From Echinicola sp. 20G (lineage in GTDB: Bacteria > Bacteroidota > Bacteroidia > Cytophagales > Cyclobacteriaceae): a stretch of DNA of 64,000 nucleotides. Both the position numbers and the translations under genes were made by a program. The notes under the pieces are model-generated. The model was not told the origin of the DNA and did no database searches. It worked only from the letters and a program-made list of their open reading frames with translations. Of this stretch, positions 8,695 through 51,105 are shown in pieces (position 1 is the stretch's first letter; each line of letters starts with the position of its first letter). The stretch spans positions 4,904,501 to 4,968,500 of the forward strand of contig NZ_AP024154.1 in NCBI RefSeq assembly GCF_015533855.1, written 5' to 3'.

Positions 8695-9516
8695 TTAATT
8701 AAATAGATTAAGCACTAAAGCAACAGCCGTAATGGAGGTGGTTATTAGGGTTAAAGTCTGTGTAGCATTGACTCCTGACCCCAGTTCCCGAACTTTCATA
8801 GGTTCAGCATATAGCTGATCGTTTGGCTGAATGAAATAAAATGGTGATTCAATAAGGTGTCTGTCTGTCAGATTAATTCTGTGAAGCTTGCTCCCTTCAG
8901 GATATTGCCTGATCAGTAGTACTTCATTTCTTTTGGCCACAGTACTCAAGTCTCCAGCTTGGGCAATGGCTTCCAAAATGGTCATCCTATCCTGAAGTAC
9001 AACGTATTTCCCTGGATGCCTAAATTCTCCGATGGCAGAAAACCTAATTCCACCCAGCTTGACCCGTACATAAAACTCACCGGATAAATAATCTTTCAAT
9101 TTTACCTCCAGCTTCTTCCTCACATCTTCCACGGTAAGGTTCATCACGTTGACTTCCCCAACGATGGGAATCCTTACATTACCATTTACATCCACAGAAT
9201 ATCCTGACATATAATAAACATCCCCTCCCGAGGAGGCGATCTGCCCCATCATCATGCTACTTTGGGAGCTTGATGCGCTGTTATTGAATCCTGACTCAAT
9301 AATATCATCTGGGGTCATTACTTGGATATCAATGATATCATTGTATTGTAGTCTGTACTCAGGTTGTTCGTACCGGATCATTGATTCTTCAGGGATGGCT
9401 TCATTTCCCTCCAGGTTCTGCAGGTAGATTAACTTCTTATTGGGAACACATGAAAATGCGGCCAAGCAAAAAATCAGTACTGAAAGCACAGTATTTAATC
9501 TAATGATTCTATTCAT
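8695..9516 (-). CDS. Polysaccharide export outer-membrane lipoprotein (Wza-like, SLBB domains)
   Basis: I place the start at the ATG at 9516, which gives 273 aa with a lipoprotein signal peptide whose cysteine is residue 23 (FCLAAFSC). A longer reading from 9570 adds 18 polar residues before the signal and is less likely. The Poly_export domain is recognisable by YRLQYNDIIDIQV, followed by GNVRIPIVGEVNVMNLTVEDV. The SLBB part follows (FSAIGEFRHPGKYVV, then ILEAIAQAGDLSTVAKRNEV). A C-terminal hydrophobic stretch ends the protein. It should form the outer-membrane export channel paired with the Wzc-like kinase encoded 9 bp downstream. The pair forms one operon. Confidence 0.9.
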   Translation of the reverse strand: MNRIIRLNTVLSVLIFCLAAFSCVPNKKLIYLQNLEGNEAIPEESMIRYEQPEYRLQYNDIIDIQVMTPDDIIESGFNNSASSSQSSMMMGQIASSGGDVYYMSGYSVDVNGNVRIPIVGEVNVMNLTVEDVRKKLEVKLKDYLSGEFYVRVKLGGIRFSAIGEFRHPGKYVVLQDRMTILEAIAQAGDLSTVAKRNEVLLIRQYPEGSKLHRINLTDRHLIESPFYFIQPNDQLYAEPMKVRELGSGVNATQTLTLITTSITAVALVLNLFN

Positions 9517-9965
9517 GGTAGTTGGTAAACTTAATAGGTTGATAAAGTTATGATCATGGTTACTTTTCAAATCTCCTTGTCAGTAGTGGGCTTGGTGCTG
9601 GTCACCCAATGGTGAAACTGCCAAAGAAAATGTCAAGTGGTGATCGTTTTGGGCTCGTTTGTATTAGAAAATTGGAACTAAAGATTCAAAAAGGGAAATT
9701 TTAAAAAGCATATGTTTTGTTTTGTAAATCAAAGGTATTTGACATTACAATTGGTATTTCCGACAATCTCCATAGAACCTCAAAAGCAAAAAACAGGGGA
9801 CAAAACCATTATTTTTCTAAAAAAATCGTCAACATTAACTCTTGCTTGAGAAAAAAGACTTCAAAATTATTCTTTGTTTACAAAAACAATCAAATTAAAA
9901 CGGATCAATTAATAATGAAATGTATTTTTTAACAATTCCACACTTCAAAAAGGCTTTAATTGAAT
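9517..9965. other. Non-coding region upstream of the wza-like gene
   Basis: About 450 bp between the wza-like start and the terminator of the sensor kinase gene. The one open frame on the plus strand (9717-9932) is AT-rich, low-complexity and has no family resemblance, so I do not call it a gene. A perfect -7-like box for minus-strand transcription lies at 9730-9737. The leader of the export operon would then be about 200 bases long. Confidence 0.5.
9730..9737 (-). promoter_or_regulatory. Candidate Bacteroidota -7 box for the wza/wzc-like operon
   Basis: CAAAGGTA on the plus strand reads TACCTTTG on the minus strand, a full match to TAnnTTTG. It lies 214 bp upstream of the wza-like ATG. I see no well-spaced -33 TTG, so this is tentative. 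Confidence 0.28.
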
Positions 9966-36354: not shown

Positions 36355-36358
36355 CTTT

Positions 36359-36538
36359 TAGTATTAAGTAATTAGTATTGAGTCCTGAGCTAAGTGCTTT
36401 CATATCTGATTTCCCCCCTTCGTACTTCGGTCTTCCCACCTGTCTGCCACCAGCCAGGCTTCATCCTTCCCTCTTCGTACTTCCCACTTCATCGTTCTTT
36501 ATTCTTAAGTCTCATGTCTATCATCTAAATTCTTGACA
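36359..36538. repeat. Heptad-repeat spacer A (between permeases 1 and 2)
   Basis: Degenerate tandem 7-mers in fixed register: six units at 36359-36400 (TAGTATT, AAGTAAT, TAGTATT ...), two at 36421-36434, and eleven at 36462-36538 (CATCCTT, CCCTCTT ... CTTGACA). The second and third blocks are separated by a 27-base palindromic element (36435-36461). The spacer is otherwise non-coding. Confidence 0.75.
36435..36461. repeat. Palindromic insert in heptad tract, copy 1
   Basis: This 27-base unit breaks the heptad series of spacer A. The first 16 bases (36435-36450, CCCACCTGTCTGCCAC) are identical to 46458-46473 in spacer E, and the following CAGGCTTC is also shared. The unit is partly self-complementary (CCTG...CAGG). 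Confidence 0.6.
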
Positions 36539-36551
36539 CCAGAAACTTACC

Positions 36552-38915
36552 TTACTCATCCTTCAATGAGTTTACCGGATTCATCAATGCCGTTTTGATG
36601 GCTTGCGAGCTGACCGTCAACAGCGCAATCAGTACTGCTCCTATACCTGCTAAGGCAAAAAGCCACCAGTCCAAGTTGATCCTATAAGCAAAGGATTTCA
36701 GGAATTGGCTCATCGCCCACCAAGCAACCGGAAAAGCGATCACACAGGAAATCAAAACCAGCAAGACAAAATCCTTGGAGAGAAGTGAGGTCAATGATGC
36801 CACAGAGGCACCCAGCACCTTTCGTATCCCAATTTCCTTGGTGCGGGTCTCAGCCATATAAGCCGACAACCCAAATAATCCCAAGCAGGAAATAAATATG
36901 GTCAGAAAGGCAAAACTTGCCGCCAGTTGCGCGGACCGCTGTGATTCCTCGAATTTCTTGGCATAGGCTTCGTCCACAAAGGTGTATTCAAAAGGAAAAT
37001 CAGGATTGTACTTGCCAAACACTTCCTTGGTACTTTCCAAAGCTTCAGCTGTCGATAAGTTGGGGTTAAATTTGAGATGAGCCACATTCGTCCAATTGCC
37101 GCTCCTCACACCAGCCAACATCAATGGCTCAATCCGCTCAAAAGGGTCAATCATTATAAAATCTTTCACCACTCCCACCACATGGTAATCTGTGTTGCTG
37201 TCAGTGACAATTTGCCCTAGAGGTTCCTCAAAGCCCATCGCTTTTACCGCACTTTCATTTAATAGCATGGCCAAAGAATCACTTGGAAACCTTTCCAAAT
37301 CCAAGTCTCGTCCACTTACCAAGGTCAAGCCAGCCGTCTTGACAATGCCTTCATCTACATGGAAACGATTAAATACAGTCTTGTCATTCGGATCCTTTCC
37401 TTCCCACCCAATTCCCCAAGTGTTGCTCCAAATTTCTGTCAATGGGGAAAGTGTACGGGTCATGGATTTCACCGTCCGAGCATTCATCAACTCCTGTTTG
37501 ATCACCCCATAATGTTGTTTGATATCGTCGGTGAGGGGAATATAAATCAGGTTATTTCTATCATAGCCATTTTCACGATCTTTGCCATGGCTAATTTGCT
37601 TATGAATGACCAAGGTGCTTACCATCAAAATAATGGCAATGGTAAACTGTAATACAACCAGAATTTTACGAGGATTAACCTTGGCATGTACTTTTCTAAA
37701 AGTTCCTTTTAGTACTTTGCTCGGCATAAAAGACGATAAAAAGAAAGCGGGATAACTACCTGCCAATACTCCAGTCAGTAAAACAAAGCCCAACACTCCA
37801 AGCCAAAACCATAAACTAGCATAGTCAATGGCCAAGCTCCTTTCCATCATCAGATTGAAATAAGGCAATATCAACTGAACAATCCCCAAAGCAATCACCC
37901 CGGCCATGGCAGAAATAATAATGGACTCAATCAAAAACTGGTAAACCAAAGCCATTTTGCCTGCTCCTACCACTTTTCGAATGCCAACTTCCTTGGCTCG
38001 TTTTTCACTTCTGGCAGTAGTAAGATTCATAAAATTGATACAAGCAATCAGGAGAATAAATCCTGCAATTATTCCATATAAGCGAATCATCTCAATCCTT
38101 CCTCCAGCTATCTCTCCGTTTTCAAACTTGGAATACAACCACCAGTTAGGCATGGCATGTAAGATCACTTCTGTGTCCTCGTCCTCACTATGTCTCTTGG
38201 TAATTCCTTTAATTTTTTCTCCAACTAGCAGTGGATCAGCTTGAGCATGTAATTCCACATAAGTTTCTACAGAATTATTTCCCCAATAATCATCCGACCA
38301 ACCTAGCTTTTCCATGTAAGACCAAGGGACCAAGTAATCAAATTCGAATTGGGTATTTGAAGGTAGATCATCCAATAAGCCTGTGACCGTAAAAGTTTCT
38401 GCATTATTGACCAAAACAGTTTTGCCCAGAGCATCAGCTGAACCAAACAGTCGTTTAGCAAAGTCCTGGGTAATCACAATATCTGTTGGATTTTTAAAAA
38501 CAGACTGTTTGTCCCCCGCTATCAAAGGAAAATCAAACATTCTTAAAAAATCTGTATCCACAAAGGCTCCTTTTGCCATGACTTTCAGATTGTCCACAGT
38601 AAATAGAATATCTCCCATATCAGAAAGTCTGGAAATTGCTTCTATCTCTGGGTATTCCTCTTTCAGTGCAGGGCCAAGAGGTTTAGGCGTGCTTCCCCAA
38701 ACATGAACTTCTCCATTGAACTCTGCCTTGTTCATGGCACGGAATACCCTATCTTTTTTGCTATGGAACCTGTCCATGCTCCATTCATGCTGCACCAAGA
38801 GCAGTATCAGAAGAGCACTGGCCATACCGATCGCCAATCCACCAATATTGATGAACGCAAAGCCCTTTTTGTTCAAAAGGTTTCTCCAAGAAATTTTTAT
38901 ATAGTTCTTCCACAT
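36552..38915 (-). CDS. MacB/FtsX-type ABC permease 2
   Basis: 787 aa with the eight-helix duplicated MacB_PCD-FtsX layout. N-terminus of the WRN class (MWKNYIKISWRNLLNKKG). Coupling motifs are ARSEKRAKEVGIRKVVGAG and RTKEIGIRKVLGAS followed by LLSKDF. The C-terminus ends in SSQAIKTALMNPVNSLKDE, shared with permease 3. Periplasmic parts include VVGVVKDFIMIDPFERIEPL, the conserved core of the second domain. It is separated from its neighbours on both sides by heptad-repeat spacers. The nearest ATPases are ATPase 1 (about 2.6 kb away) and ATPase 2; because it has no adjacent dedicated ATPase, it probably shares one of these. Confidence 0.9.
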   Translation of the reverse strand: MWKNYIKISWRNLLNKKGFAFINIGGLAIGMASALLILLLVQHEWSMDRFHSKKDRVFRAMNKAEFNGEVHVWGSTPKPLGPALKEEYPEIEAISRLSDMGDILFTVDNLKVMAKGAFVDTDFLRMFDFPLIAGDKQSVFKNPTDIVITQDFAKRLFGSADALGKTVLVNNAETFTVTGLLDDLPSNTQFEFDYLVPWSYMEKLGWSDDYWGNNSVETYVELHAQADPLLVGEKIKGITKRHSEDEDTEVILHAMPNWWLYSKFENGEIAGGRIEMIRLYGIIAGFILLIACINFMNLTTARSEKRAKEVGIRKVVGAGKMALVYQFLIESIIISAMAGVIALGIVQLILPYFNLMMERSLAIDYASLWFWLGVLGFVLLTGVLAGSYPAFFLSSFMPSKVLKGTFRKVHAKVNPRKILVVLQFTIAIILMVSTLVIHKQISHGKDRENGYDRNNLIYIPLTDDIKQHYGVIKQELMNARTVKSMTRTLSPLTEIWSNTWGIGWEGKDPNDKTVFNRFHVDEGIVKTAGLTLVSGRDLDLERFPSDSLAMLLNESAVKAMGFEEPLGQIVTDSNTDYHVVGVVKDFIMIDPFERIEPLMLAGVRSGNWTNVAHLKFNPNLSTAEALESTKEVFGKYNPDFPFEYTFVDEAYAKKFEESQRSAQLAASFAFLTIFISCLGLFGLSAYMAETRTKEIGIRKVLGASVASLTSLLSKDFVLLVLISCVIAFPVAWWAMSQFLKSFAYRINLDWWLFALAGIGAVLIALLTVSSQAIKTALMNPVNSLKDE

Positions 38916-38924
38916 GGCTTTTTA

Positions 38925-39057
38925 TAGTAATGAGTATCTAGTATTGAGTCTTGAGTACTGAGACTTCCAGTTTCGGTCTTCCTACTCCTGTCTTTCCTCT
39001 TTATTCTAAAACCTTACATCTCATGTCTAGTGTCTAAAATCTTGATACTAGAATCTC
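38925..39057. repeat. Heptad-repeat spacer B (between permeases 2 and 3)
   Basis: Nineteen consecutive 7-mers without a register slip, from TAGTAAT (38925-38931) to GAATCTC (39051-39057). The middle of each unit is usually TCT, TAC or TAT. The tract fills nearly the whole 145-bp gap: it starts 10 bp upstream of the permease 2 ATG and ends 3 bp before the permease 3 stop codon. Confidence 0.8.
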
Positions 39058-39060
39058 CAT

Positions 39061-41418
39061 TCACTCGCTTCGCAACGAGTTTACCGGGTTCATCAAGGCC
39101 GCCTTGATCGCCTGAGAACTTACCGTTAGCAAGGCAATTACTATAGCCGCTAGGCCAGCACCAGCAAACATCCACCACTGCAAGTCAATTCTATATGCGA
39201 AATCCTGAAGCCATCGGTACATCATATACCAAGCTATAGGGGTAGCGATAAGAATTGCGATTAATATCAGCCTGATAAAGTCTTTGGACAGCAGCGCTAC
39301 TACCCCGCTTACCGATGCTCCAAGGACCTTTCGAATGCCTATCTCCTTGGTGCGCTGTTCGGCTGTATGTGCAGAAAGGCCAAACAAACCGAGGCAGGAG
39401 ATAATGATAGCCAGCCCTGCAAAATATTTGGATAGTGTGGCTACCCTTTGTTCCGACTCATATTGCACTTGGAAATCCTCATCCAAAAACCTGTATTCAA
39501 AAGGATATCCAGGATTAAATGTCTGATACAAGTTTTGGAGTCCCTCTAGAGCAGCTTTTTCCTGTCCTCCCTCAACACTCACCATAATATGTCTGACCGC
39601 CTCAGGCATCATCCTAATAAATATCGGATCCACTTTTTCCTTCAAAGACTTAAAATGAAAATCCTTAACCACCCCAATAATGGTAGCCCTGCCGTTTGCA
39701 ACAGTTTTACCTATCGGGTCTTCTATTCCCATGGTCTTGATGGCTGTTTCGTTAAAAATGATCCCCATACTATCTGCACCATATTCCCGGCTAAAACTTC
39801 GGCCTTCCAATACCTCCATGCCCATGGTCTCGATAAAATCATAATCCACTCCGAAAATGATAAATTGGGTTGCATCGTTGTCCTCTTTCCCCTCCCAGCT
39901 TATCGATGTGCTCCAGTTCTTACCAATCATAGGGTGTGTCGTACTTGAGGCATTCTTTATACCCGGAAGTTTTTTTGCTTCGGACATAAATGCCTGCAGC
40001 TGCTTCTTGATATCCCCTTCAACTTCCATGGTCACAATATGATCCTGGTCATAGCCCATATTTTGGCTTTGAACAAACTCAATTTGCCTGTAAACCACCA
40101 ATACAGATACAATCAAAACAATGGATAAAACAAACTGGACAACTACCAATCCTTTACGGGTCATAAATTCTCCAAATGAACTATTCAGCTTGCCTTTGAG
40201 GACCTTAATTGCACTAAACTTGGATAAATAGAGGGCAGGATAACTACCAGCTATCAATCCGGCAAAAATGGCAATACCTAAAGCAGTTAGAAAAAGAGGA
40301 ATATCTAAACTCAGCCCCAGTTGCTTACCAACAATAACATTGAACTGAGGGAGAAAAAGCATCACCAGCCCTACCGCTAGTACCAAAGCCAAGAGTGACA
40401 TGGCAACAGACTCAGTAAGGAACTGAAAAATAAAGCTCTCTCTGTCTGCCCCTACTGCTTTCTTTATTCCTATCTCTTTTAGCCTTTTAGAAGCGCGGGC
40501 TGTGGACAAATTCATAAAATTGATACAAGCGATCACCAAAATTATCAAAGCAATCAGAGAGAATAGCTTTACATATTCTATCCGGCCCCCCACCTGTTTT
40601 CCATTTTCATAATTCCCATGGAGGTAATGATCCGAAAAAGACACCAATGTCGCTGTTTGAATGGTCTGCTCGTTCCTGCTTTTCCTGATCTTTTCCACCT
40701 TGCTGTTAAGCAACTGTATATCAGCTCCTTCCCTCACCAAAACATACACCTTGGGTCCTGTACTGTTCCAAGTATGGAGCGAAGTCCAAGGGGGAATTTC
40801 TTTTGAAGCTTCGGTTGATAAAACAAAATCAAATTGCAAGGTAGAGTTCGAAGGTACATTCTCAAAGATCCCAGAAACCTGAAAGGTCCTGTCATGCTCA
40901 AATTCCACCGCTTCACCAACTACATTTTCTGTAGTACCAAATAGATTAGTCGCCAGTTCCCTAGAGATGATAATGGAATTTGGATCTGCCATGACCTGGT
41001 CTTTGTCCCCTTGGATTAATGGATAAGAAAAAATATTGAAGTAATCTTTGCTCACCAACTGTCCAACTGCTTTAAGGTTTTTCTCCCCCACAGTAAGCAA
41101 ATGTTTACCAAACCAATCGGGTGGAATAGATGAAGCTGCATACTCCACTTCTGGCATTTCATCGGCCAATAACTCGGCCATTGGACCAGATGTTTCGATG
41201 AAAGTCTGCACACCATCAGAAAACTCCACATGTTCAATGACCTGGTATATGCGATCATGATTTTCATGGAACTTGTCCATTTTCGTTTCATCGTTCACCC
41301 ACAGATAAATCAGCAGGACACAGGCCAAACCAGTAGAAAGCCCAATCAAGTTGATCAAAAAAGTACTTCTGTCTTTTCTGATATTCCGAATAAATATTAT
41401 TAAGTGATGTTTTAACAT
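39061..41418 (-). CDS. MacB/FtsX-type ABC permease 3
   Basis: 785 aa, eight predicted helices in the duplicated layout. Its N-terminus (MLKHHLIIFIRNIRK, then LINLIGLSTGLACVLLIYLW) groups with permeases 5 and 6. Its C-terminal FtsX block (LLSKDFIRLILIAILIATPIAW, ending SSQAIKAALMNPVNSLRSE) groups with permeases 2 and 4. That makes it look like a mosaic. Coupling motifs are ARASKRLKEIGIKKAVGAD and RTKEIGIRKVLGAS. The second periplasmic domain has TIIGVVKDFHFKSLKEKVDP, close to permease 5. Heptad spacers lie on both sides. Role as for the other permeases: inner-membrane part of a tripartite export pump, substrate unknown. Confidence 0.9.
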   Translation of the reverse strand: MLKHHLIIFIRNIRKDRSTFLINLIGLSTGLACVLLIYLWVNDETKMDKFHENHDRIYQVIEHVEFSDGVQTFIETSGPMAELLADEMPEVEYAASSIPPDWFGKHLLTVGEKNLKAVGQLVSKDYFNIFSYPLIQGDKDQVMADPNSIIISRELATNLFGTTENVVGEAVEFEHDRTFQVSGIFENVPSNSTLQFDFVLSTEASKEIPPWTSLHTWNSTGPKVYVLVREGADIQLLNSKVEKIRKSRNEQTIQTATLVSFSDHYLHGNYENGKQVGGRIEYVKLFSLIALIILVIACINFMNLSTARASKRLKEIGIKKAVGADRESFIFQFLTESVAMSLLALVLAVGLVMLFLPQFNVIVGKQLGLSLDIPLFLTALGIAIFAGLIAGSYPALYLSKFSAIKVLKGKLNSSFGEFMTRKGLVVVQFVLSIVLIVSVLVVYRQIEFVQSQNMGYDQDHIVTMEVEGDIKKQLQAFMSEAKKLPGIKNASSTTHPMIGKNWSTSISWEGKEDNDATQFIIFGVDYDFIETMGMEVLEGRSFSREYGADSMGIIFNETAIKTMGIEDPIGKTVANGRATIIGVVKDFHFKSLKEKVDPIFIRMMPEAVRHIMVSVEGGQEKAALEGLQNLYQTFNPGYPFEYRFLDEDFQVQYESEQRVATLSKYFAGLAIIISCLGLFGLSAHTAEQRTKEIGIRKVLGASVSGVVALLSKDFIRLILIAILIATPIAWYMMYRWLQDFAYRIDLQWWMFAGAGLAAIVIALLTVSSQAIKAALMNPVNSLRSE

Positions 41419-41426
41419 GGCATTAT

Positions 41427-41559
41427 TAGTATTAAGTAGAGAGTAGAGAGTATTGAGTCATCGTATCATTCAGATCGTTCTTCCCTCTTTGGCCTTCAAA
41501 CTTCAATCATTCTTTGTTCTATAATCTTTTATCTAGTGTCTAAAGTCTATCATCTAAAT
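41427..41559. repeat. Heptad-repeat spacer C (between permeases 3 and 4)
   Basis: Nineteen consecutive 7-mers from TAGTATT (41427-41433) to TCTAAAT (41553-41559). The first five units resemble those of spacers A, B and D; the last six have the form TCTnnnn. The final unit reaches the stop codon of permease 4. Confidence 0.8.
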
Positions 41560-43976
41560 TATTCGCTTCGAAGCGAGTTCACGGGATTGATCAAGGCTGA
41601 TTTGATGGATTGGAAACTGATGGTTAAAATCGCAACCATTACGGCCATCAATCCTGCCACCGCGAAGATCCACCAATGAATTTCTATCTGATAGGCAAAG
41701 CCCATCAACCATTTGTTCATCACATACCATGATACCGGCGTTGCGATGGCAATGGCTACCAGCACCAGCTTGACAAAGTCCTTGGACAATAAGGTGACAA
41801 TGCTGAACACCTCTGCACCTAAGACTTTCCTGATTCCAATTTCCTTGGTACGCATTTCCGCTGTATAGGTGGCCAAACCCAATAATCCCAAACAGGCAAT
41901 CAAAATCGCTATCACCGAAAAGGTGGTAAACAATTGCTTGAACCTGAAATCTGATTGGTACTGACTGTTAAAATCATCATCCAAAAAACTATAGACAAAT
42001 GGGCGATGGGGAGCCAGCTCTGCCCATACTTTTTCTACATGGGCAATTGTATTTCCTAAATCTTCAGGTTTTACTTTGACACTCATATAGCGACTTGCAT
42101 AGGCTTCAAAAGGCAGGGTAAGTGGTTCAATATTCCTATGAAGGGAGATATAATTAAAATCCTTCACTACACCAATGACCTCTCCTTCATGTCCCCACTG
42201 CTCAAATTTTCTCCCTATTATATCCGCAGGGTTGGCATACCCAAATGCCTTGGCTGCCGCTTCATTGATGATCAATGATGAGGTAGAATCAGAAGGATAA
42301 TCCCTGGAATAAGATCGACCGGCGATCAATTCGATGTCAAAATGGTCCACAAAATCGATCCCTACTTGAAAAATAGGTGGAGAATAGTTTTTCATTTCTC
42401 CTTCTGGTGATTCGATCGTGGTGCCTGCGTTAGGAAAATGACTTCCAGGCACACTTCTGGAAAAGGCTACTGAAAGTATGCTTGGTTCCTTCTCCAGCTC
42501 CTGTTTCAATGCTGAAGACATGGTATTGACCTGTCCATCATAATTATAGTCCACTACCAGCATCTGTTCTTTATCAAAGCCCATGTCCTTATCCAAAAGG
42601 TGGTTCATCTGGAAATATACAATCAAGGTCCCTGCAATCAAGGCCACCGATAAGCTGAACTGGAAGATCACCAATGCCTTTCTCAAGTTCACACCACTTG
42701 CATTGGCTTTGTTGATGCCTTTTAGGACAGATACAGGCTTAAAGCTGGAAAGTACCAATGCAGGATAGGAACCTGCCAAAAGACCTATCAATACCATTAG
42801 TCCAAGAAATAATATGATATTTTGCCAGCTGATAATTTGGTTAAGTTCCAAAACCTTTCCTGTCAAGTTCTCCACCATCGGAAAACCCAAAATGAGCAAA
42901 AGCCAACCTATTACCGAAGCTATACAAACTATGATCAATGATTCCCCCATAAATTGAAGCACCAGGCTCATCTTATCAGCCCCAACAGACTTTCTGATTC
43001 CCACCTCTTTGGCTCTCTCCATGGACCGTGCCGTGGAAAGGTTCATAAAATTGATGATGGCAATCACCAGAATAAAAATGCCAATTACGGAGAATATATA
43101 GATATTGGACATGCTACCTGTTTCCCCTGGTTGTCTTTGTACTTTTGAGTTAAGGTAGACATCTCCCAAAGGTTCAAGAGCGATGGTATAGCGATCTCCT
43201 AAATCCCCTCTTCTTCTTTTCAAAAACTCAGGGACTTTTTGTTGGAATGCTTCTGGGTTAAAATGCTCACTTGCCAAGAAATAAGTATAAGAATCCACAT
43301 AGCCCCATTCATCAAAAATCCCTGGCCGCGACTGTCTAAACGTGCTCATTGAGAGAAGCGCATTGAACTTAAAGTGTGAATTGTCCGGAACATCTTCCAT
43401 TACCCCTGTCACGGTATAATCACCCGCATTTGAACGTCCAGCAGATTCACTTCCTTTCAGGGTCTTGCCCAATGGATCTTCATTCCCAAAATACTTTTTG
43501 GCCGTGCTTTCTGTTAAAACAATACTATATGGCGCTACCAATGCCCTTTTGGCATCACCTTCAATCATTTTCCAACTAAAAACATCAAATGCTGTGGAGT
43601 CAATAAAAAGCACTCCTTCTTCTTGATAAGTATCCTCTCCATAGCTTAAGAGAAGATCTGCCCTTCCCGAAAACTGCACGACTTTTTCTATATCAGGAAA
43701 TTCTTCCTTCAGCGCTGGTCCTATCGGTGCATTGCCCCATACCCAATAGGATTCTACTTCTCCCTCATCTGCCTCAGGGGAACTGTTGCCATGGATCACC
43801 CGATAAATCCTGTCCTTCTTTTCATGATATTGATCATAGGACAGTTCATCCATGATATACATGGAGATCACCAAACAACAGGCCATGCCAACTGCCAAAC
43901 CTAAAATATTGATAGAGGCATATACCTTCTTTTTCAAAAGGTTTCTCCAAGCGATTTTAAAATAGTTCTTCCACAT
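41559..43976 (-). CDS. MacB/FtsX-type ABC permease 4
   Basis: 805 aa, the longest of the six. WRN-class N-terminus (MWKNYFKIAWRNLLKKK, then INILGLAVGMACCLVISMYI). Coupling motifs are ARSMERAKEVGIRKSVGAD and RTKEIGIRKVLGAE followed by LLSKDF. C-terminus ends SFQSIKSALINPVNSLRSE. The second periplasmic domain has EVIGVVKDFNYISLHRNIEPL. Heptad spacers flank the gene. All expected membrane helices are intact, so this is a functional-looking copy rather than a decaying one. Confidence 0.9.
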   Translation of the reverse strand: MWKNYFKIAWRNLLKKKVYASINILGLAVGMACCLVISMYIMDELSYDQYHEKKDRIYRVIHGNSSPEADEGEVESYWVWGNAPIGPALKEEFPDIEKVVQFSGRADLLLSYGEDTYQEEGVLFIDSTAFDVFSWKMIEGDAKRALVAPYSIVLTESTAKKYFGNEDPLGKTLKGSESAGRSNAGDYTVTGVMEDVPDNSHFKFNALLSMSTFRQSRPGIFDEWGYVDSYTYFLASEHFNPEAFQQKVPEFLKRRRGDLGDRYTIALEPLGDVYLNSKVQRQPGETGSMSNIYIFSVIGIFILVIAIINFMNLSTARSMERAKEVGIRKSVGADKMSLVLQFMGESLIIVCIASVIGWLLLILGFPMVENLTGKVLELNQIISWQNIILFLGLMVLIGLLAGSYPALVLSSFKPVSVLKGINKANASGVNLRKALVIFQFSLSVALIAGTLIVYFQMNHLLDKDMGFDKEQMLVVDYNYDGQVNTMSSALKQELEKEPSILSVAFSRSVPGSHFPNAGTTIESPEGEMKNYSPPIFQVGIDFVDHFDIELIAGRSYSRDYPSDSTSSLIINEAAAKAFGYANPADIIGRKFEQWGHEGEVIGVVKDFNYISLHRNIEPLTLPFEAYASRYMSVKVKPEDLGNTIAHVEKVWAELAPHRPFVYSFLDDDFNSQYQSDFRFKQLFTTFSVIAILIACLGLLGLATYTAEMRTKEIGIRKVLGAEVFSIVTLLSKDFVKLVLVAIAIATPVSWYVMNKWLMGFAYQIEIHWWIFAVAGLMAVMVAILTISFQSIKSALINPVNSLRSE

Positions 43977-43985
43977 GGCTTTTTA

Positions 43986-44041
43986 TAGTATTTAGTATTG
44001 GGTCATAAGTATTGAGACTTACTTCAAACTTCGTTCTTCAT
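43986..44041. repeat. Heptad-repeat spacer D (between permeases 4 and 5)
   Basis: Eight consecutive 7-mers from TAGTATT (43986-43992), repeated as TAGTATT, then GGGTCAT, AAGTATT, GAGACTT, ACTTCAA, ACTTCGT, TCTTCAT. The tract starts 10 bp upstream of the permease 4 ATG, as in spacer B, and runs into the permease 5 stop codon region (44038-44040). Confidence 0.78.
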
Positions 44042-44193
44042 TCATCTCTCAATGAATTCACTGGGTTTACATTGGCCGCTCGGAAAGCTTGTGTGCCCAC
44101 CGTGAGCATGGCGATCAGCATAATCACGACAGCTGCCACCATAAACAGCCACCAATCCAACGATGTACGATAAGCAAAACCTGCCAACCACTG
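44036..44193. repeat. 158-bp near-identical permease 3' end, copy 1
   Basis: Matches 46495-46652 at 157 of 158 positions; the only difference is G at 44065 against A at 46524. Beyond 44193 the two genes diverge at many synonymous sites. Encodes the last about 51 residues of permease 5 plus stop. Confidence 0.9.
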
Positions 44194-46386
44194 CTTGCTT
44201 GCCCACCAAGAAATAGGGACAGCTATTGCAAATGCTACCAAAACCAGTTTGGCAAACTCACCTGTCATCAATTTCAAAATGGTACCGATTGATGCTCCCA
44301 ACACTTTGCGCACACCGATTTCCTTTTTGCGTTTCTCGGCACTGAACACAGCCAAGCCAAAGAGTCCCAAGCAGGAAATCAATATGGCCAAACCCGTAAA
44401 ATATTTTGATAAGGTGGAGACACGCTGCTCTGAAACATATTGTTCCTGATAAGCCTCATCCAGAAATCGATAATCTAGGGCATATCCAGGATTAAAAGAT
44501 TTATAAAACTTTTTCAGTGAAGCTATTGTATTTTGTTGGTTTCCCGCTTCTAGTTTTAGCGCCACATAGTTGGTCCTTTCCGGGTTGATGAAAAGGAACA
44601 GCGGCTTCACCTTTTCGTGCAAGGACTTGAAGTGAAAATCTTTGACTACTCCAATGATTTCGCGTTCATTTCCCCAGAGTCTCACCTTTTGTCCAACAGG
44701 GTTTTCCAATCCCATGGCATTGACTGCTGATTCATTGAAAATTATTGCGTCAGCATCTGATCTTTTCTTGTCAAAACTTCTTCCTTTCAGCACCTCTAAG
44801 TCTAGCAATTCTGTCAATCCATAGTTGACACGACGGTACTCCATATCTACTCGCTCTCCTTCTTCTTTGCCGGACCAGGAGACATCATTTGTTCCATTGA
44901 TATTTCCTAAAAAAGTCATAAACATACTGGAAGCGCCTTTTACCCCGGGGACTTCTGTCACTTCTTCGAGGAATGATTCCAAGTGGTTGGTCACCTCTCC
45001 TTCAATGGGAAAGTACATAACATTTTCCTTGTTGTACCCAAGTTGCTTTGTTTGAATCAACTCTATTTGCCTATGGACCACCAACACTGCTACTGCCAAA
45101 ACCACAGATAAGGTAAACTGAAAAACTATTAGCCCTTTTCTAACCCACAATTCATTCGGGCTGCCTCCCTTGCCTAAAGTCGACTTTAAGGGATTTATTC
45201 CAGAAAGATAAATCGCTGGGTAAGCTCCCGCCAGTAAACCAGCTAATAAGGTAATCCCCAAAAATGCCCCTACCATAGGCCCGTTTAAAGTCAAGCTAAG
45301 CGCTTTCCCGGTAAGCTCATTGAACTGAGGTAAAAGCAGCATCACTACAACTACCGCCAAAACCAAAGCCGAGAAAGACATAAAAACAGATTCAGCCAAG
45401 TACTGCAAAACCAAGGTTTTTCTTTCTGCTCCCATGGCCTTCTTGACTCGGATTTCTTTTAACCTTTGAGAAGCTTTGGCTGTGGAAAGGTTCATAAAAT
45501 TGATACAGGCCAATATCAGGATAAATAAGGCAATTAGGGCGAACAACTTGACATAGCTAATTCTTCCCCCCACTTGCAACCCATTTTCATAATTACCGTA
45601 GAGATAGGCATCCGAAAATTTCCTCAAAAACAAGGATTCACTTTGGACTCCCGTATATTTGGTGACTATTCCTTTTATTTTTTCATCGATAACTGAACGG
45701 TCAGTCCCTTTTTGCGCCAGAACAAAAGTGTTTACCCAAACGCTTGACCAGTCTTCCTTAAGATTGGGGTAATGATCAAAAGCAGTAGCCAGAGGTATTA
45801 AAAAATCAAAATTTCTGGTTGAATTAGAAGGGGTTTCGAAAACACCGGAAATTTGATATTCTCCTTTTCCGTCAATCGTAATCATTTCTCCCAATACGTT
45901 TTTTCCCTCGCCGAAAATCCTATTGGCCAGCTCCTTGGAAACTACTATTCCTGACTTATCCTCCAAAAAGTGTGCACCGTTCCCAGCCAGCACAGGATAG
46001 GAAAAGACCTGAAAATACTCAGGACTAACATATGCACCGAAGCTTTTATAAACATTCTCCTTTACTATCAGCGGGTATTCCATCGGAATTATCCCTTCGG
46101 AAACAGCCAATTCTATTTCAGGTACCTCGTCCATTAAGATCCCAGTCAAGCCCGTAGGGTTATTCGTTCCTACCTCCACTCCATTGGCAGAAACCGATTT
46201 CATCATTACCTGAAAGATCTGACCATCATTTTGATGGAACTTATCCACTGAGAACTCATCATTTACCCATAAGTAAATCATCAAGGTACAGGCAAGCCCA
46301 GCAGCAAGGCCCAAAAGATTCACTAAAAAGGTATCTTTATGCCTCTTGAAATTGCGAAAGAATAATATGAGGTGATGTTTTAGCAT
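44038..46386 (-). CDS. MacB/FtsX-type ABC permease 5
   Basis: 782 aa in the duplicated MacB_PCD-FtsX layout. N-terminus MLKHHLILFFRNFKRHK groups with permeases 3 and 6. Coupling motifs are AKASQRLKEIRVKKAMGAE and KRKKEIGVRKVLGAS followed by MTGEF. The C-terminal about 50 residues, ending AFRAANVNPVNSLRDE, are identical to those of permease 6, and the DNA for this part is nearly identical too (see the repeat entry), while the rest differs. This indicates recent gene conversion. Heptad spacers flank the gene. It may share ATPase 2 with permeases 2-4 and 6. Confidence 0.9.
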   Translation of the reverse strand: MLKHHLILFFRNFKRHKDTFLVNLLGLAAGLACTLMIYLWVNDEFSVDKFHQNDGQIFQVMMKSVSANGVEVGTNNPTGLTGILMDEVPEIELAVSEGIIPMEYPLIVKENVYKSFGAYVSPEYFQVFSYPVLAGNGAHFLEDKSGIVVSKELANRIFGEGKNVLGEMITIDGKGEYQISGVFETPSNSTRNFDFLIPLATAFDHYPNLKEDWSSVWVNTFVLAQKGTDRSVIDEKIKGIVTKYTGVQSESLFLRKFSDAYLYGNYENGLQVGGRISYVKLFALIALFILILACINFMNLSTAKASQRLKEIRVKKAMGAERKTLVLQYLAESVFMSFSALVLAVVVVMLLLPQFNELTGKALSLTLNGPMVGAFLGITLLAGLLAGAYPAIYLSGINPLKSTLGKGGSPNELWVRKGLIVFQFTLSVVLAVAVLVVHRQIELIQTKQLGYNKENVMYFPIEGEVTNHLESFLEEVTEVPGVKGASSMFMTFLGNINGTNDVSWSGKEEGERVDMEYRRVNYGLTELLDLEVLKGRSFDKKRSDADAIIFNESAVNAMGLENPVGQKVRLWGNEREIIGVVKDFHFKSLHEKVKPLFLFINPERTNYVALKLEAGNQQNTIASLKKFYKSFNPGYALDYRFLDEAYQEQYVSEQRVSTLSKYFTGLAILISCLGLFGLAVFSAEKRKKEIGVRKVLGASIGTILKLMTGEFAKLVLVAFAIAVPISWWASKQWLAGFAYRTSLDWWLFMVAAVVIMLIAMLTVGTQAFRAANVNPVNSLRDE

Positions 46387-46392
46387 TGTGTT

Positions 46393-46496
46393 ATTAGTCT
46401 TTAGTCTGCTTTGTCGGCAGACAGGTAATGAGTTAAATATCTTCGTTCTTCAAACTTCCCACCTGTCTGCCACAGGCAGGCTTCGTTCTCCAAGCT
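46393..46496. repeat. Heptad-repeat spacer E with palindromic elements (between permeases 5 and 6)
   Basis: 7-mers such as TTAGTCT TTAGTCT start the tract. It is broken by two palindromic stretches: GGCAGACAGGT at 46416-46426 and its exact inverse ACCTGTCTGCC at 46461-46471. The second belongs to the same unit as the insert in spacer A (16 identical bases at 46458-46473) and continues CACAGGCAGGC. Heptads resume between and after the inserts (TCTTCGT, TCTTCAA, ACTTCCC). Confidence 0.7.
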
Positions 46497-46652
46497 TCAT
46501 TCATCTCTCAATGAATTCACTGGATTTACATTGGCCGCTCGGAAAGCTTGTGTGCCCACCGTGAGCATGGCGATCAGCATAATCACGACAGCTGCCACCA
46601 TAAACAGCCACCAATCCAACGATGTACGATAAGCAAAACCTGCCAACCACTG
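46495..46652. repeat. 158-bp near-identical permease 3' end, copy 2
   Basis: Partner of 44036-44193 (157 of 158 identical). It encodes the C-terminal about 51 residues and stop codon of permease 6. Confidence 0.9.
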
Positions 46653-48860
46653 TCTGCTTGCCCACCAGGAAATGGGAACTGCAATGGTGATAGCCACTAA
46701 AATCAGCTTAGCAAATTCACCTGTCATCAACTTGACAATAGTTCCAATAGAAGCGCCCAATACTTTTCGAACACCTATTTCTTTTTTGCGCTTTTCAGCA
46801 GAAAATACTGCCAATCCAAATAGGCCCAAGCAAGAAATCAAAATGGCCAGCCCACCGAAGTACATGGCCAAGGTCTCTACCCTTTGCTCTGCCTCATACT
46901 GTGACTGATAGTTTTCATCCAAAAATTTATACTCAAACACATCCCCCGGGCTTACCTCATGATAAAGGCTTTCTATGCCCTTAATGGTAGCTTGGGTATT
47001 TTCTGAGTTGATCTTCACCATAATATGCTGTGCGGTTTCTGGCTTATATTTCAGGAATGCAGGTTTTACATTTTCACGAAGAGATTCAAAATTGAAATCC
47101 TTTACCACGCCTATAATTTCCTTGTCAGCTCCCCACAAGTTGACTGTTTTCCCAATGGGATCTTTCATACCCATTGCCTTGATCGCTGCTTCATTAAGAA
47201 TTATCTTGGTATCTTCTGCTGCATAATCTTTTGAAAACGACCTCCCCTCAAGCATGGTCATATTTAAGGTCTCAATAAGGTCATAGCCAACGGAGATGTT
47301 TTCGAATTTCACATTAGTGTTGGGGTCCTTCCCTGGCCATGTCAAGCCGATGGTTGAACTACCAGCCCCCATCATGGAATGAAAGATTCCTGAGGCCTGT
47401 TGTACACCGGGCACATCCTTTACGCGCTCCACAAATGTCTCAAATCGCTGCCCAGACAGTCCATATGGAGTAATATTCAAGACATTTCCCCTTTGATAAC
47501 CTAGGCTTTGTTGCTTTACATGGGAAATTTGTTTTCCCACCACCATGATGGAGATAATCATGATGAGAGAAACTGTAAACTGGAAAACCACTAAGCCCCT
47601 TCTTGCCAACATCTCACCAAAGGTTCCGCGCTGAATCCCTTTTAAAACACTTGAAGGCTTAAATCCAGAAAGGTAAAAAGCAGGATAAATTCCCGACATC
47701 AATGCTGTAAATAACCCTATCCCTGCAATGATAGCCCATTGCTGAAAAGACAAATTTAGGCTAAGGTATTTGTGGGTGATTTGATTGAACTGGGGAAGCA
47801 GAAAATACACTAAAATCAAAGCCAATAACAAAGCCGCTGAGGTGAGAGAAATTACCTCTATCAAAAACTGGTAGATCAGCTGCTTTCTATCAGCACCAAT
47901 GGCTTTTTTGATCCCTACCTCCTTGCTTCGGCTAATGGCCTTGGCGGTAGTAAGGTTGATAAAATTCACGCAGGCAATAGCCAAAACTAACAAGGCGATG
48001 ATACTAAACAAATAAACATATTGAACCCTTCCGCCTGCCACTTTTCCATTTTCGTAATTCCCGTGCAAATAGGTGTCACCAAAGTTTTGTACCATTGGGC
48101 GAACATTGGAATCCGCGAGTTTTGACTTTATAAACCCATCGATTTTTTGGTTAAAAAAATCAACATCTGTTTCTTTTTTCAGCAAAACATAACTTACGGC
48201 ATTGTGATTATCCCAATGAATCCCACCTCCCAGCATCTGCTTGAAATAATCAAAAGCCATCAAAAACTCAGGCCTCAAGGTTGAGCTTTGAGGAAAGTCT
48301 TGATAAACACCGCTGATAGTCACTTCATTCGAAAAATCAAAAACCTGCCATTCCAAGCTTTTACCCAGTGCTTCTTTTGGATCATTAAAAAGCTTTTTGG
48401 CCATGCTTTCAGAAACCATCACATTGTTTATATCTGTCAATCCAGCGGATGGATTTCCATATAGAATCGGAATGGTAAACATGGACAACATATCCTGTTC
48501 AGCAAACAAGCCATCGGATCCTATTTTTTCATCTCCATAAGAAAATGAAACATCTTCAATGAAGGGAGAAGTAGCAGCTGCTTTTTCCACCTCAGGAAGT
48601 TCTTCCTCCAAAGCATCCGCCAATAGACCTGGCCCGTATTGGATTGTAACTGTCCCTCCTTCATTGTCATGATTGGTAAGTACTAGAAACAACTGGTCCT
48701 TATGCTCATTATACTGATTCACATTAGTTTCATCCTGAATCCACATATAGATCAAGAAAACACAGGCTAAGCCGAAAGAAAGCCCAATCAGGTTGATCAG
48801 AAAGGTTGTCTTTTGCTTTCTGAAATTTCGAATGACCAATGTTAGGTAATGTTTAAGCAT
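46497..48860 (-). CDS. MacB/FtsX-type ABC permease 6
   Basis: 787 aa. N-terminus MLKHYLTLVIRNFRKQK of the same class as permeases 3 and 5. Coupling motifs are AKAISRSKEVGIKKAIGAD and KRKKEIGVRKVLGAS. The second periplasmic domain contains EIIGVVKDFNFESLRENVKP. Its C-terminus is identical to permease 5 through a conversion tract. It is the first permease of the operon, 93 bp downstream of ATPase 2, which is its likely partner. Heptad spacers lie on both sides. Confidence 0.9.
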   Translation of the reverse strand: MLKHYLTLVIRNFRKQKTTFLINLIGLSFGLACVFLIYMWIQDETNVNQYNEHKDQLFLVLTNHDNEGGTVTIQYGPGLLADALEEELPEVEKAAATSPFIEDVSFSYGDEKIGSDGLFAEQDMLSMFTIPILYGNPSAGLTDINNVMVSESMAKKLFNDPKEALGKSLEWQVFDFSNEVTISGVYQDFPQSSTLRPEFLMAFDYFKQMLGGGIHWDNHNAVSYVLLKKETDVDFFNQKIDGFIKSKLADSNVRPMVQNFGDTYLHGNYENGKVAGGRVQYVYLFSIIALLVLAIACVNFINLTTAKAISRSKEVGIKKAIGADRKQLIYQFLIEVISLTSAALLLALILVYFLLPQFNQITHKYLSLNLSFQQWAIIAGIGLFTALMSGIYPAFYLSGFKPSSVLKGIQRGTFGEMLARRGLVVFQFTVSLIMIISIMVVGKQISHVKQQSLGYQRGNVLNITPYGLSGQRFETFVERVKDVPGVQQASGIFHSMMGAGSSTIGLTWPGKDPNTNVKFENISVGYDLIETLNMTMLEGRSFSKDYAAEDTKIILNEAAIKAMGMKDPIGKTVNLWGADKEIIGVVKDFNFESLRENVKPAFLKYKPETAQHIMVKINSENTQATIKGIESLYHEVSPGDVFEYKFLDENYQSQYEAEQRVETLAMYFGGLAILISCLGLFGLAVFSAEKRKKEIGVRKVLGASIGTIVKLMTGEFAKLILVAITIAVPISWWASRQWLAGFAYRTSLDWWLFMVAAVVIMLIAMLTVGTQAFRAANVNPVNSLRDE

Positions 48861-48879
48861 AACTGAATGGTATGATTTC

Positions 48880-48956
48880 TAGTAACTAGTATTTAGTAGT
48901 AAGTAGCTTGTATTTAGAAGTTGTCTTCGATCTTCATACTTCCTCCTTCGTACTTA
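48880..48956. repeat. Heptad-repeat spacer F (between permease 6 and ATPase 2)
   Basis: Eleven consecutive 7-mers from TAGTAAC (48880-48886) through TAGTATT, TAGTAGT, AAGTAGC to GTACTTA (48950-48956). The last unit overlaps the stop codon of ATPase 2. Confidence 0.78.
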
Positions 48957-49652
48957 AATATGGAATTGCTCACGGATATTCTCCGTCACCACCTTACCAT
49001 CAAACAGATTAATCACACGGTGGGCATAATTGGCATCATGTGGGGAGTGGGTAACCATCACAATGGTGGTTCCTTCGTTGTTCAATTCTTCCAGGAGCCT
49101 CATTACTTCTTCCCCATTGGCAGAATCCAGGTTACCGGTAGGTTCATCGGCAAGGATGATGGCTGGCTTGGTGATAATGGCCCTGGCAATGGCCACCCGC
49201 TGTTGCTGACCTCCAGAAAGTTGCTGTGGAAAGTGGTTCCTCCTGTGCATGATATTCATCCTTTCGAGTACCTGTTCCACTTTTTGTTTTCGCTCATTCG
49301 CAGGCACCTTTAAATAAAGCAGTGCGAGTTCCACATTTTCGAAAACCGTCAATTCATCAATCAGGTTGAAGCTTTGAAAGACAAAACCGATATTACCCTT
49401 TCTTAACTGAGAGCGTTTTCTTTCAGAGAATTTGGCCACTTCATGGTCCAGAAAATGGTATTCTCCTTCATCCGGGTTATCCAATAATCCCAGGATATTC
49501 AGCAAGGTGGATTTTCCACATCCTGAAGGGCCCATAATGGCCACAAACTCCCCTTGTTTGATTTCGATATCAATGCTTTCCAAAGCAGTGGTCTCTATCT
49601 CCTCAGTAGCATAGAGCTTTTTCAGGGCGGTTGTTTTAATGACGTTTTGCAT
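48954..49652 (-). CDS. ABC transporter ATPase 2 (MacB/LolD type)
   Basis: 232 aa with canonical motifs: Walker A GPSGCGKST (41-49), Q-loop FVFQSFNLIDELTVFENVEL, signature LSGGQQQRVAIARAI, Walker B IILADEPTGNLDS and switch His in VMVTHSPHDA. It energises MacB/FtsX-type permeases by dimerising on the cytoplasmic coupling helices. Unlike ATPase 1 it has no deviating signature residues, so it is likely the main motor for permeases 2-6. It is preceded by the adaptor gene and a 202-bp spacer, and followed by heptad spacer F and permease 6. Confidence 0.93.
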   Translation of the reverse strand: MQNVIKTTALKKLYATEEIETTALESIDIEIKQGEFVAIMGPSGCGKSTLLNILGLLDNPDEGEYHFLDHEVAKFSERKRSQLRKGNIGFVFQSFNLIDELTVFENVELALLYLKVPANERKQKVEQVLERMNIMHRRNHFPQQLSGGQQQRVAIARAIITKPAIILADEPTGNLDSANGEEVMRLLEELNNEGTTIVMVTHSPHDANYAHRVINLFDGKVVTENIREQFHI

Positions 49653-49659
49653 ATCGTTG

Positions 49660-49680
49660 TCAGATGTCCGATGTCCTAAG
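49660..49680. repeat. Short heptad block upstream of ATPase 2
   Basis: Three 7-mers, TCAGATG, TCCGATG and TCCTAAG, starting 8 bp upstream of the ATPase 2 ATG (49652). They are the first part of spacer G; the stretch 49690-49800 between this and the next block is AT-rich, without repeat. Confidence 0.5.
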
Positions 49681-49813
49681 TTTGAGCCAGAAACATCGTA
49701 GATTATATTTTATTGTTTTTTGTTCAATTTTTGACCAAAAGGATAATAGCTTATACACTAGATAAAATCCTTCTCCCAATGCTTTTTCAAATGTTTAACT
49801 ATTCGGCCCCTAT

Positions 49814-49862
49814 TACTTCGTCCTTCCTACTTCCCTCTTCCCACTTCGTTCTTCCTACTTCA
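49814..49862. repeat. Heptad-repeat spacer G (between ATPase 2 and adaptor)
   Basis: Seven consecutive 7-mers of form nnCTTCn: TACTTCG, TCCTTCC, TACTTCC, CTCTTCC, CACTTCG, TTCTTCC, TACTTCA. This is the most regular tract. It reads into the adaptor gene, covering its stop codon (49855-49857) and last codons. Confidence 0.82.
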
Positions 49863-51105
49863 AAAGCAGCACCTCATTGTCTCCGAAATTTTCGTAGCCT
49901 GACACCACCACTCTATCTCCCTCATTAAGGCCTTCCAGCACTTCGAAATGATCTGGATTTTTTCTCCCAAGTCTTATGTTTCTCTTTTGAGCTTTCTCCC
50001 CGGAATTGTTCAAAACAAAAACCCAGTTCCCTCCTGTATCCTTGTAGAAGCCTCCAGTAGGCAATAGCAACAGCCTTTCACTGTCACCAAGCTCCAGCTT
50101 GATACGAACAGATTGCCCTCTTCTCACACCAGGAGGTGTTCCCTCCAGAAACAGCATATCCACTTCAAACCTACCCTCAGAAATGCTCGGATAGATTTTT
50201 GCAATTTCGACAGCGTAATTATCTCCAGAAAAAGAGAAGTTTCCCCTGAGTCCTTTTCTCACCCTCGGCAAATACAGTTCATCTATCTGTACCCTCACCT
50301 TAAATTCATTCAAGATGTCTATCTGTCCATATCTTTCACCAGACTGAATGGACTGGCCTATTTCTATTTTTTCCGTAGCCAACTGCCCATTAATGGGTGC
50401 AGTGATGATCAGGTTATCCAAAATATGGCCTACCCCTTCCAGGGACTTTTGCATTCTGGCCTCAGAAGCTTTCAACTGTTGCAGCTGAATGGACCGAGCG
50501 ATGGAGTCATTCTTATAAGACTCATAGGTCAGTTGCCTTCTCTTGATATTGTATTCATATTCTTCTTTTACCTCCTCTAGCTCTCTGTCCGACGCCAACT
50601 TCCTATCATGCAACTCCTTGAACCGTTTGTACTGGGGTTTTAGCAAGCTAATTTGATAATCAATCTCAGCTAACTGGCCTTGTTGGTTAAGATCATTTTG
50701 ATCCAATAATAATCTTGTTTGGCGAAGATTATTGATTTGTTCGTACAACATGGTTTCCCTTTGCATCACATCCAGTTGCAAATTGGAATTGGTCAAAGTC
50801 AAAATAGTATCACCTACCTCTACCAAGGCTCCAGACTCCCTCACCACTTCTTGTATAATCCCTCCTTCTATCGCATCCAAGTAAAAGGTCTCTGCCGGTT
50901 GCATGGTACCAGATACGGTGATATAATCCTTGTATTCTCCCTCGCTTACGGTGGCTATAGATAATCTTTCTTTCTCCACATACAGCGAACTTCTATTATC
51001 AGCAAACAGCAACTGGTAAACTATTAGGGACAATACCGCCACACCAATAATGATCATGGCGATAAACTTTGGAGTCCAGGTCTTCTTTTCAATTTTTCTA
51101 TCCAT
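49855..51105 (-). CDS. Periplasmic adaptor (membrane fusion protein, HlyD/MacA type) of the efflux island
   Basis: About 416 aa from the ATG at 51105; a TTG two codons upstream is less likely. One N-terminal membrane helix (about 13-37), then the first lipoyl half (YKDYITVSGTMQPAETFYLDAIEGGIIQEVVRESGALVEVGD, about 55-100), a coiled-coil hairpin rich in Gln, Leu and Glu (about 110-205), the second lipoyl half (NLIITAPINGQLATEKIEIGQSI), a beta-barrel and a C-terminal membrane-proximal domain. It bridges permeases and TolC across the periplasm. It is the first gene of the minus-strand efflux operon and the only adaptor in the island, so it should serve all six permeases. Divergent from the NtrC-type regulator gene. 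Confidence 0.92.
   Translation of the reverse strand: MDRKIEKKTWTPKFIAMIIIGVAVLSLIVYQLLFADNRSSLYVEKERLSIATVSEGEYKDYITVSGTMQPAETFYLDAIEGGIIQEVVRESGALVEVGDTILTLTNSNLQLDVMQRETMLYEQINNLRQTRLLLDQNDLNQQGQLAEIDYQISLLKPQYKRFKELHDRKLASDRELEEVKEEYEYNIKRRQLTYESYKNDSIARSIQLQQLKASEARMQKSLEGVGHILDNLIITAPINGQLATEKIEIGQSIQSGERYGQIDILNEFKVRVQIDELYLPRVRKGLRGNFSFSGDNYAVEIAKIYPSISEGRFEVDMLFLEGTPPGVRRGQSVRIKLELGDSERLLLLPTGGFYKDTGGNWVFVLNNSGEKAQKRNIRLGRKNPDHFEVLEGLNEGDRVVVSGYENFGDNEVLLLK

Follow-up and report, generated by a model that had tools for sequence, protein, structure and literature searches.

Degenerate heptad tracts in an Echinicola efflux operon as candidate relatives of S23/IVP operon-junction elements

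The spacers of a minus-strand efflux operon in Echinicola sp. 20G carry degenerate tandem heptanucleotides, and on balance these tracts are probably decaying relatives, without an open reading frame (ORF), of an operon-junction element in which an IVP gene stands between inverted heptad arms. The operon, hereafter the island, was analysed within a stretch of 64,000 nucleotides (the window; 4,904,501–4,968,500 of a single-contig genome of 5.79 Mb, positions below being counted from its first letter) and encodes an HlyD-type adaptor, ABC ATPase 2, the MacB/FtsX permeases 2–6 and 1, ABC ATPase 1 and an outer-membrane channel. The proposed element would consist of a small gene for the four-helix-bundle protein S23/IVP, set at an operon junction and enclosed by two arms of degenerate heptads in inverted orientation; each unit would have one AG in the 5′ arm, or one CT in the 3′ arm, and five weakly constrained positions. 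At most loci examined, the flanks of IVP genes are locus-specific inverted complementary arms, mostly of period 7, and such arms occur both with and without an IVP gene at one junction across relatives, spacer G of the island included.

A period of seven bases in the island spacers

Spacers A to G separate the stop and start codons of co-directional genes. From A to G, sequence identity at a lag of seven bases was 0.52, 0.51, 0.51, 0.50, 0.41, 0.52 and 0.45 (z = 7.1, 6.2, 5.9, 3.7, 3.5, 5.2 and 5.5), and none of 1000 dinucleotide shuffles per spacer reached the observed identity in any of them, hence the period of seven that a first-pass annotation of this DNA had proposed holds for all seven spacers. 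A harmonic at lag 14 was seen in all spacers except E (z 2.3–6.8; E 1.2), with a weaker one at lag 21 (z 1.5–4.8; E −0.7). When the 64 kb were scanned for periodic stretches at lags 4 to 20 (49-base windows, identity threshold 0.55), all eight lag-7 matches fell in 36357–49864, as did six of the seven at lag 14, and the remaining lags gave 0–4 matches apiece.

All seven spacers lie on the minus strand. Spacer B (permease 6/permease 5, 38916..39060) is heptad tract over its whole length, spacers C (permease 5/permease 4, 41419..41558) and F (permease 2/ATPase 2, 48861..48953) also hold tracts, and that of spacer D (permease 4/permease 3, 43977..44037) is short. The tracts of spacers A (permease 1/permease 6, 36355..36551) and E (permease 3/permease 2, 46387..46496) are interrupted, as had been described; a family of palindromic words (CCTGTCTGCC/GGCAGACAGG) breaks them at 36439 in A and at 46416 and 46462 in E. 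Spacer G (ATPase 2/adaptor, 49653..49854) has a GAAG-type arm at the adaptor stop and GGACATC-type units at the ATPase start, with about 130 non-repeat bases between them. The earlier spacer coordinates and unit counts were roughly right, the units themselves being degenerate.

The units are ordered within the spacers. On the mRNA (minus) strand of spacer A, AG-type units lie nearer the 5′ end and CT-type units nearer the 3′ end, and all six island spacers with both unit types run AG-first and CT-last, albeit on small counts. The recurrence of TAGTATT-type units at one end of each gap was borne out by eye at the permease-start end of A–D and F, with a TAGTCTT variant in E, and did not extend to G, which has none. 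Compact junctions lack tracts, as had been noted, because there is no room for them: ATPase 1 and permease 1 are 23 bases apart, and tolC overlaps ATPase 1.

IVP genes at the adaptor/ATPase junction

In the congener G009, spacer G contains an ORF of 118 amino acids that matches PF05635 (23S_rRNA_IVP/S23) at 1.3e-30 and lies between GAAG-type and CTTC-type inverted heptad tracts; the protein sequence resembles that of chain 2gsc, whose structure is solved. The same adaptor/ATPase junction was surveyed in 25 of the 32 genomes in which the adaptor was matched (one stretch, L404, being only 127 bases), and an IVP gene was present in four: G009 and G011 (both sense), G034 (antisense) and G001. The G001 locus is a diverged paralogue, with 42% identity in the adaptor and an IVP gene with an early stop, followed by the ATPase. 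By eye, ORF-less heptads occupy the junction in G000, G007 and G330, and a one-sided tract does so in G329, where the next gene seems to be a permease. Most of the remaining genomes showed no tract by eye. The right end of spacer G in the window (GGACATCGGACATCTGACAAC) is similar, again by eye, to the right IVP arm of G011.

Inverted arms flank most IVP genes examined

PF05635 genes were present in 157 of 198 sampled genomes of the window’s phylum, with up to 16 matches per genome, and the Echinicola genome itself has four, one with an internal stop. We compared the flanks of 34 IVP loci (the 30 best hidden Markov model (HMM) matches of the phylum sample and these four) by aligning the upstream 150 bases with the reverse complement of the downstream 100 bases. 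Flanks of the same locus scored 17.06 against 10.47 (sd 2.8) across loci, and 23 of the 34 reached a score of at least 15, as against 7.7% of mismatched pairs. For all four Echinicola matches, the downstream flank that best fitted the upstream one was that of the same locus, ahead of those of all 33 others. As a control, ParE small toxin genes (30 loci, of which 23 were usable and seven were dropped as too short) gave 8.87 for matched and 8.86 for mismatched flanks, and none of the 23 scored 15 or more.

The pooled IVP flanks were periodic at lag 7 (z = 11.3 downstream and 8.4 upstream; ParE control −2.4 and −0.8) and also at lag 8 (z = 5.9 and 3.9), some arms having a period of eight. Arms of the IVP loci folded better than shuffles (mean z −2.6), with 18 of 34 under −2. 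To profile the unit, we selected arms by periodicity and nothing else, which kept 27 of the 34 5′ arms and 21 of the 34 3′ arms, and tested columns on held-out loci. Per seven bases, the held-out unit had A at 0.72 and G at 0.65 in the 5′ arm, and C at 0.86 and T at 0.75 in the 3′ arm. In the 5′ arm none of the five other positions rose far above background (at most 0.14 bits); those of the 3′ arm showed a stronger bias (up to 0.38 bits, with C avoided). Permuting columns within 5′ arms left the AG signal flat. Searches of the open-licence PubMed Central (PMC) literature listed no paper whose title or abstract opening connects PF05635 genes at protein operons with heptad arms in their flanks.

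Thiolase junctions with and without an IVP gene

A junction in another family, upstream of thiolase (PF00108/PF02803), was followed at 30 of 35 matched loci. It held a sense IVP gene in nine of the 30, all with visible arms, and an antisense one in two (L331, and part of one in L328), leaving 19 IVP-free. Inverted arms at four of the 21 loci without a sense IVP gene (L318, L319, L324 and L325) beat all 40 shuffles and those of L320 tied, with the others plain by eye.

A scan of both strands also found IVP frames within 1.5 kb downstream of thiolase in 14 of the 30 loci (L303, L305, L308, L310, L311, L312, L314–L317, L320, L323, L324 and L331). Since these come in addition to the upstream junction, the two borders of thiolase are a hot spot for IVP genes.

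Tracts elsewhere in the genome

The rest of the genome was sampled as 87 grid pieces of 20 kb (1.74 Mb) and 13 further pieces around spacer-B BLAST matches or adjoining the window, the latter biased by choice; L049, with a masked N run, was excluded from lag counts. A combined lag-7/14 scan picked out 11 stretches across the grid and 27 in the chosen pieces; the seven that it gave for the window all belong to the island. Seven of the 11 grid stretches resembled real tracts by eye (L011, L017 twice, L047, L054, L062 and L075). Counted by spacer, the lag-7 threshold was passed by six of the seven in the island (E fails), none of 20 others in the window and 38 of 657 in the grid (Fisher p = 4e-7 for 6/7 against 38/657), which confirms the expected excess over other intergenic DNA. 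Most of the 38 are noise, since 18–37 of the 657 grid spacers passed the same threshold at lags 5, 6 and 8–12. Given six of seven island spacers against 38 of 657, the island is a dense cluster of something dispersed thinly over the genome. Chance or AT-richness as the origin of the tracts is ruled out by the shuffles, the lag scan of the window and the comparison with the grid.

In L092, L096 and L097 the tracts are paired in inverted orientation, with an AG-type tract to the left of other small repeats and a CT-type tract to their right. Nests of small palindromic repeats lie between genes there, bracketed by the inverted heptad tracts (L097 8260–10170, L096 9030–9830 and L092 9620–9950). 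The L097 nest includes repeated agccacaggctcgg and gagcttccagctc, and copies of a atctgtgtttatctgtgtccatctgtgg repeat occur near heptad tracts in L096 (about 9425–9455 and 9585–9622) and L101 (9720–9750). Half-site words of the CCTGTCTGCC/GGCAGACAGG type, four words in all, had six occurrences in the grid.

Origin of the tracts

The island tracts have the register and polarity of IVP arms, while the arms are locus-specific. As register and polarity are kept, and the ORF and the pairing are not, the spacers are better described as ORF-less decayed relatives than as members of the 23S intervening sequence (IVS) family. In an intact element the arms may pair in the mRNA like the terminal stem of the 23S IVS, with the IVP ORF in the loop, and RNase III could cut such a paired element out. 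Whole heptads would be gained and lost by slippage, and the AG-every-7 pattern may be the recognition target of an IVP ring or of another single-strand-binding ring. Spacer G of the island would once have held an IVP gene and lost it, and spacers A–F would be solo or one-sided remnants.

Several results weigh against this origin. No IVP remnant was detectable in the island of the window (tblastn best E 0.45), and folding of 18 spacers from three genomes gave no excess over shuffles (mean z −0.5); the two E spacers were the only exceptions (z −5.0 and −2.9), with stems predicted at the palindromic words. No mobility event was directly observed. Flank scores were below 15 at 11 of the 34 IVP loci and below 12 at five (L164, L174, L180, L182 and L188), and the phylum loci in this set had been taken as the best HMM matches and not at random. 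At a second junction, which precedes a PF04245 gene, just one of 30 loci had an IVP gene, and among the matches listed for exact TAACTGA ×3 arrays in named genomes, one locus in 80 did. The association is one-sided, as most tracts have no IVP gene.

Two of these loci are of separate note. L337, at the PF04245 junction, shows a heptad run by eye, and the sole IVP case among the TAACTGA loci is L266 (7154–7981, Nostocales cyanobacterium), where the gene lies between inverted TCAGTTA..TAACTGA arrays.

Aligned indels of at least five bases between the window and G009 in spacers B–F measured 21, 21 and 29 bases (insertions in spacer C of G009), 70 (spacer D, +69 in all from an alignment of +70 and −1), 14 and 56 (together the +70 of spacer E) and 11. 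Five of the seven are multiples of seven (binomial p = 0.001), which speaks for the proposed element too. The result is soft, because in DNA that is itself periodic aligners favour period-sized gaps, and only one of the net length differences (1, 73, 69, 70 and 11) is a multiple of seven. The palindromic words were noted in spacers C and E of G009 as well (L139/L140), and a palindromic insert of 21 bases (3 × 7) aligns within the tract of its spacer C.

Short tandemly repeated repetitive sequences (STRRs) are heptanucleotide repeats of filamentous cyanobacteria, in tandem and near-identical. A somewhat unlikely explanation, the best of the alternatives, is that the tracts are STRR-like intergenic microsatellites changing by slippage, and that IVP elements merely land in them by preference or are tolerated in such places. 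The scarcity of IVP genes at heptad arrays, the indels in multiples of seven and the lack of hairpins in the island spacers all fit such an origin. Slippage alone would not, however, be expected to make the flanks of an IVP locus complement each other above those of other loci, to conserve one dinucleotide per heptad as the rest drifts, or to put AG-type units first and CT-type units last. Equating STRRs with IVP elements in general was tried and rejected, the TAACTGA arrays being mostly negative.

That the tracts are recombination substrates behind the gain, loss and shuffling of permeases seems quite improbable. Permease sets do differ, with the order 1-6-5-4-3-2 in the window (33949–48860), 6-5-4-3-2 in G009 and 1-X-6-Y-2 in G007 (congener pieces L139–L142), and G011, which also has an efflux island, carries nine tracts in a 15 kb piece. 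Against this, 12 of 15 other permease-bearing pieces (L143–L152 and L154–L158) had no tract and L144, L148 and L157 had two, one and one, at the threshold of a scan that can miss short arms such as those around the IVP gene of L143. No breakpoint was mapped within a tract, and tracts occur away from the island too. The start-codon ends of the island spacers are also no more alike among themselves (14.9; unit-shuffled 12.2) than they are to six tracts elsewhere (15.0), and for this reason gene duplication carrying the spacers along is unsupported as well.

The earlier suggestion of RNA spacers tuning expression, here as elements for processing or translation of the permease mRNA (e.g. stem-loops or a protein-binding spacer), is very improbable: the stop-to-start position between co-directional genes and the constant polarity would suit it, but hairpins have no support from folding, the best Rfam match, at E 0.026, has 31.1 bits where the gathering score is 43 and points to no known family, promoter or terminator arrays occurred at chance level (26 vs 27.3; terminator-like sites 14 vs 11.9) and many relatives have an adaptor/ATPase junction without a tract by eye.

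Descent of the spacer tracts from an IVP-bearing junction element could be part of a broader scheme, which we put forward as an unlikely conjecture. Non-rRNA S23/IVP genes would be the coding part of widespread operon-junction elements with AG-every-7 recognition units (CT in the opposite arm), and each subunit of a ring-shaped IVP multimer would read one such unit in single-stranded RNA or DNA. Elsewhere in the heptad the bases would be rewritten at each locus with the arms kept complementary, and STRRs and the present spacers would be solo or decayed arms. S23p proteins have no known function according to the part of PMC4990558 drawn on here, and a role as the coding part of such elements would assign them a niche and an anatomy and lead to testable predictions. 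If true, the scheme would also offer an origin for degenerate heptad tracts, whose mechanism of transmission is not evident according to the abstract of the TAACTGA paper (PMC4679880).

Comparison with known systems

The island spacers resemble STRRs in being intergenic, dispersed and of period 7, although a few of the listed stretches overlap predicted ORFs. They are not tandem near-identical heptanucleotides, their lag-7 identity being only 0.41–0.52. The first-pass interpretation is thus partly supported: its likening of the tracts to STRRs and its option of a selfish repeat point in the right direction, though the near-identical units of STRRs are not matched. The link to the IVP gene could not be seen from the window, the gene lying outside it. 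Its statement that no equivalent had been described does not hold, as mixed heptamer tracts in intergenic DNA of Bacteroidetes (PMC4679880) and heptamers beside an S23p ORF (PMC4990558) are published. The main text of the TAACTGA paper, in the part available to us, does not contain the words ‘S23’, ‘four helix’ or ‘intervening’ (PMC4679880). With STRRs and TAACTGA repeats, the tracts described here share the period, the intergenic position and, in Bacteroidetes, the mixture of heptamers. The two differ in that STRR and TAACTGA arrays are near-identical and direct, whereas the present units have little in common beyond AG or CT and form inverted arms.

Like miniature inverted-repeat transposable elements (MITEs) and repetitive extragenic palindromic (REP)-type repeats, the tracts are small, do not code for protein, have an inverted arrangement and may have autonomous relatives. 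They have no fixed terminal sequence, the arms being locus-specific, and no transposase was linked to them, none having been searched for. Plain junctions exist in relatives at both the thiolase and adaptor/ATPase loci.

There is a close likeness to the 23S IVS with its PF05635 ORF. An independent hint at the proposed link comes from Coxiella, where tandem GACAGAT heptamers, two or three by strain, lie just upstream of S23p, and this IVS, described as a selfish element, has a 28-bp terminal stem that is cut by RNase III (PMC4990558, in the part used here). The elements of relatives similarly hold an S23/IVP ORF between complementary inverted termini. They differ from the 23S IVS in lying at junctions of protein operons such as the efflux genes instead of in rRNA and in having arms of degenerate heptads with an AG/CT register, and the island copies differ further in lacking the ORF and pairing poorly. 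A further parallel lies in the diversity-generating retroelements, as PF05635 is related to their accessory protein Avd (PMC10053308, in the section drawn on here).

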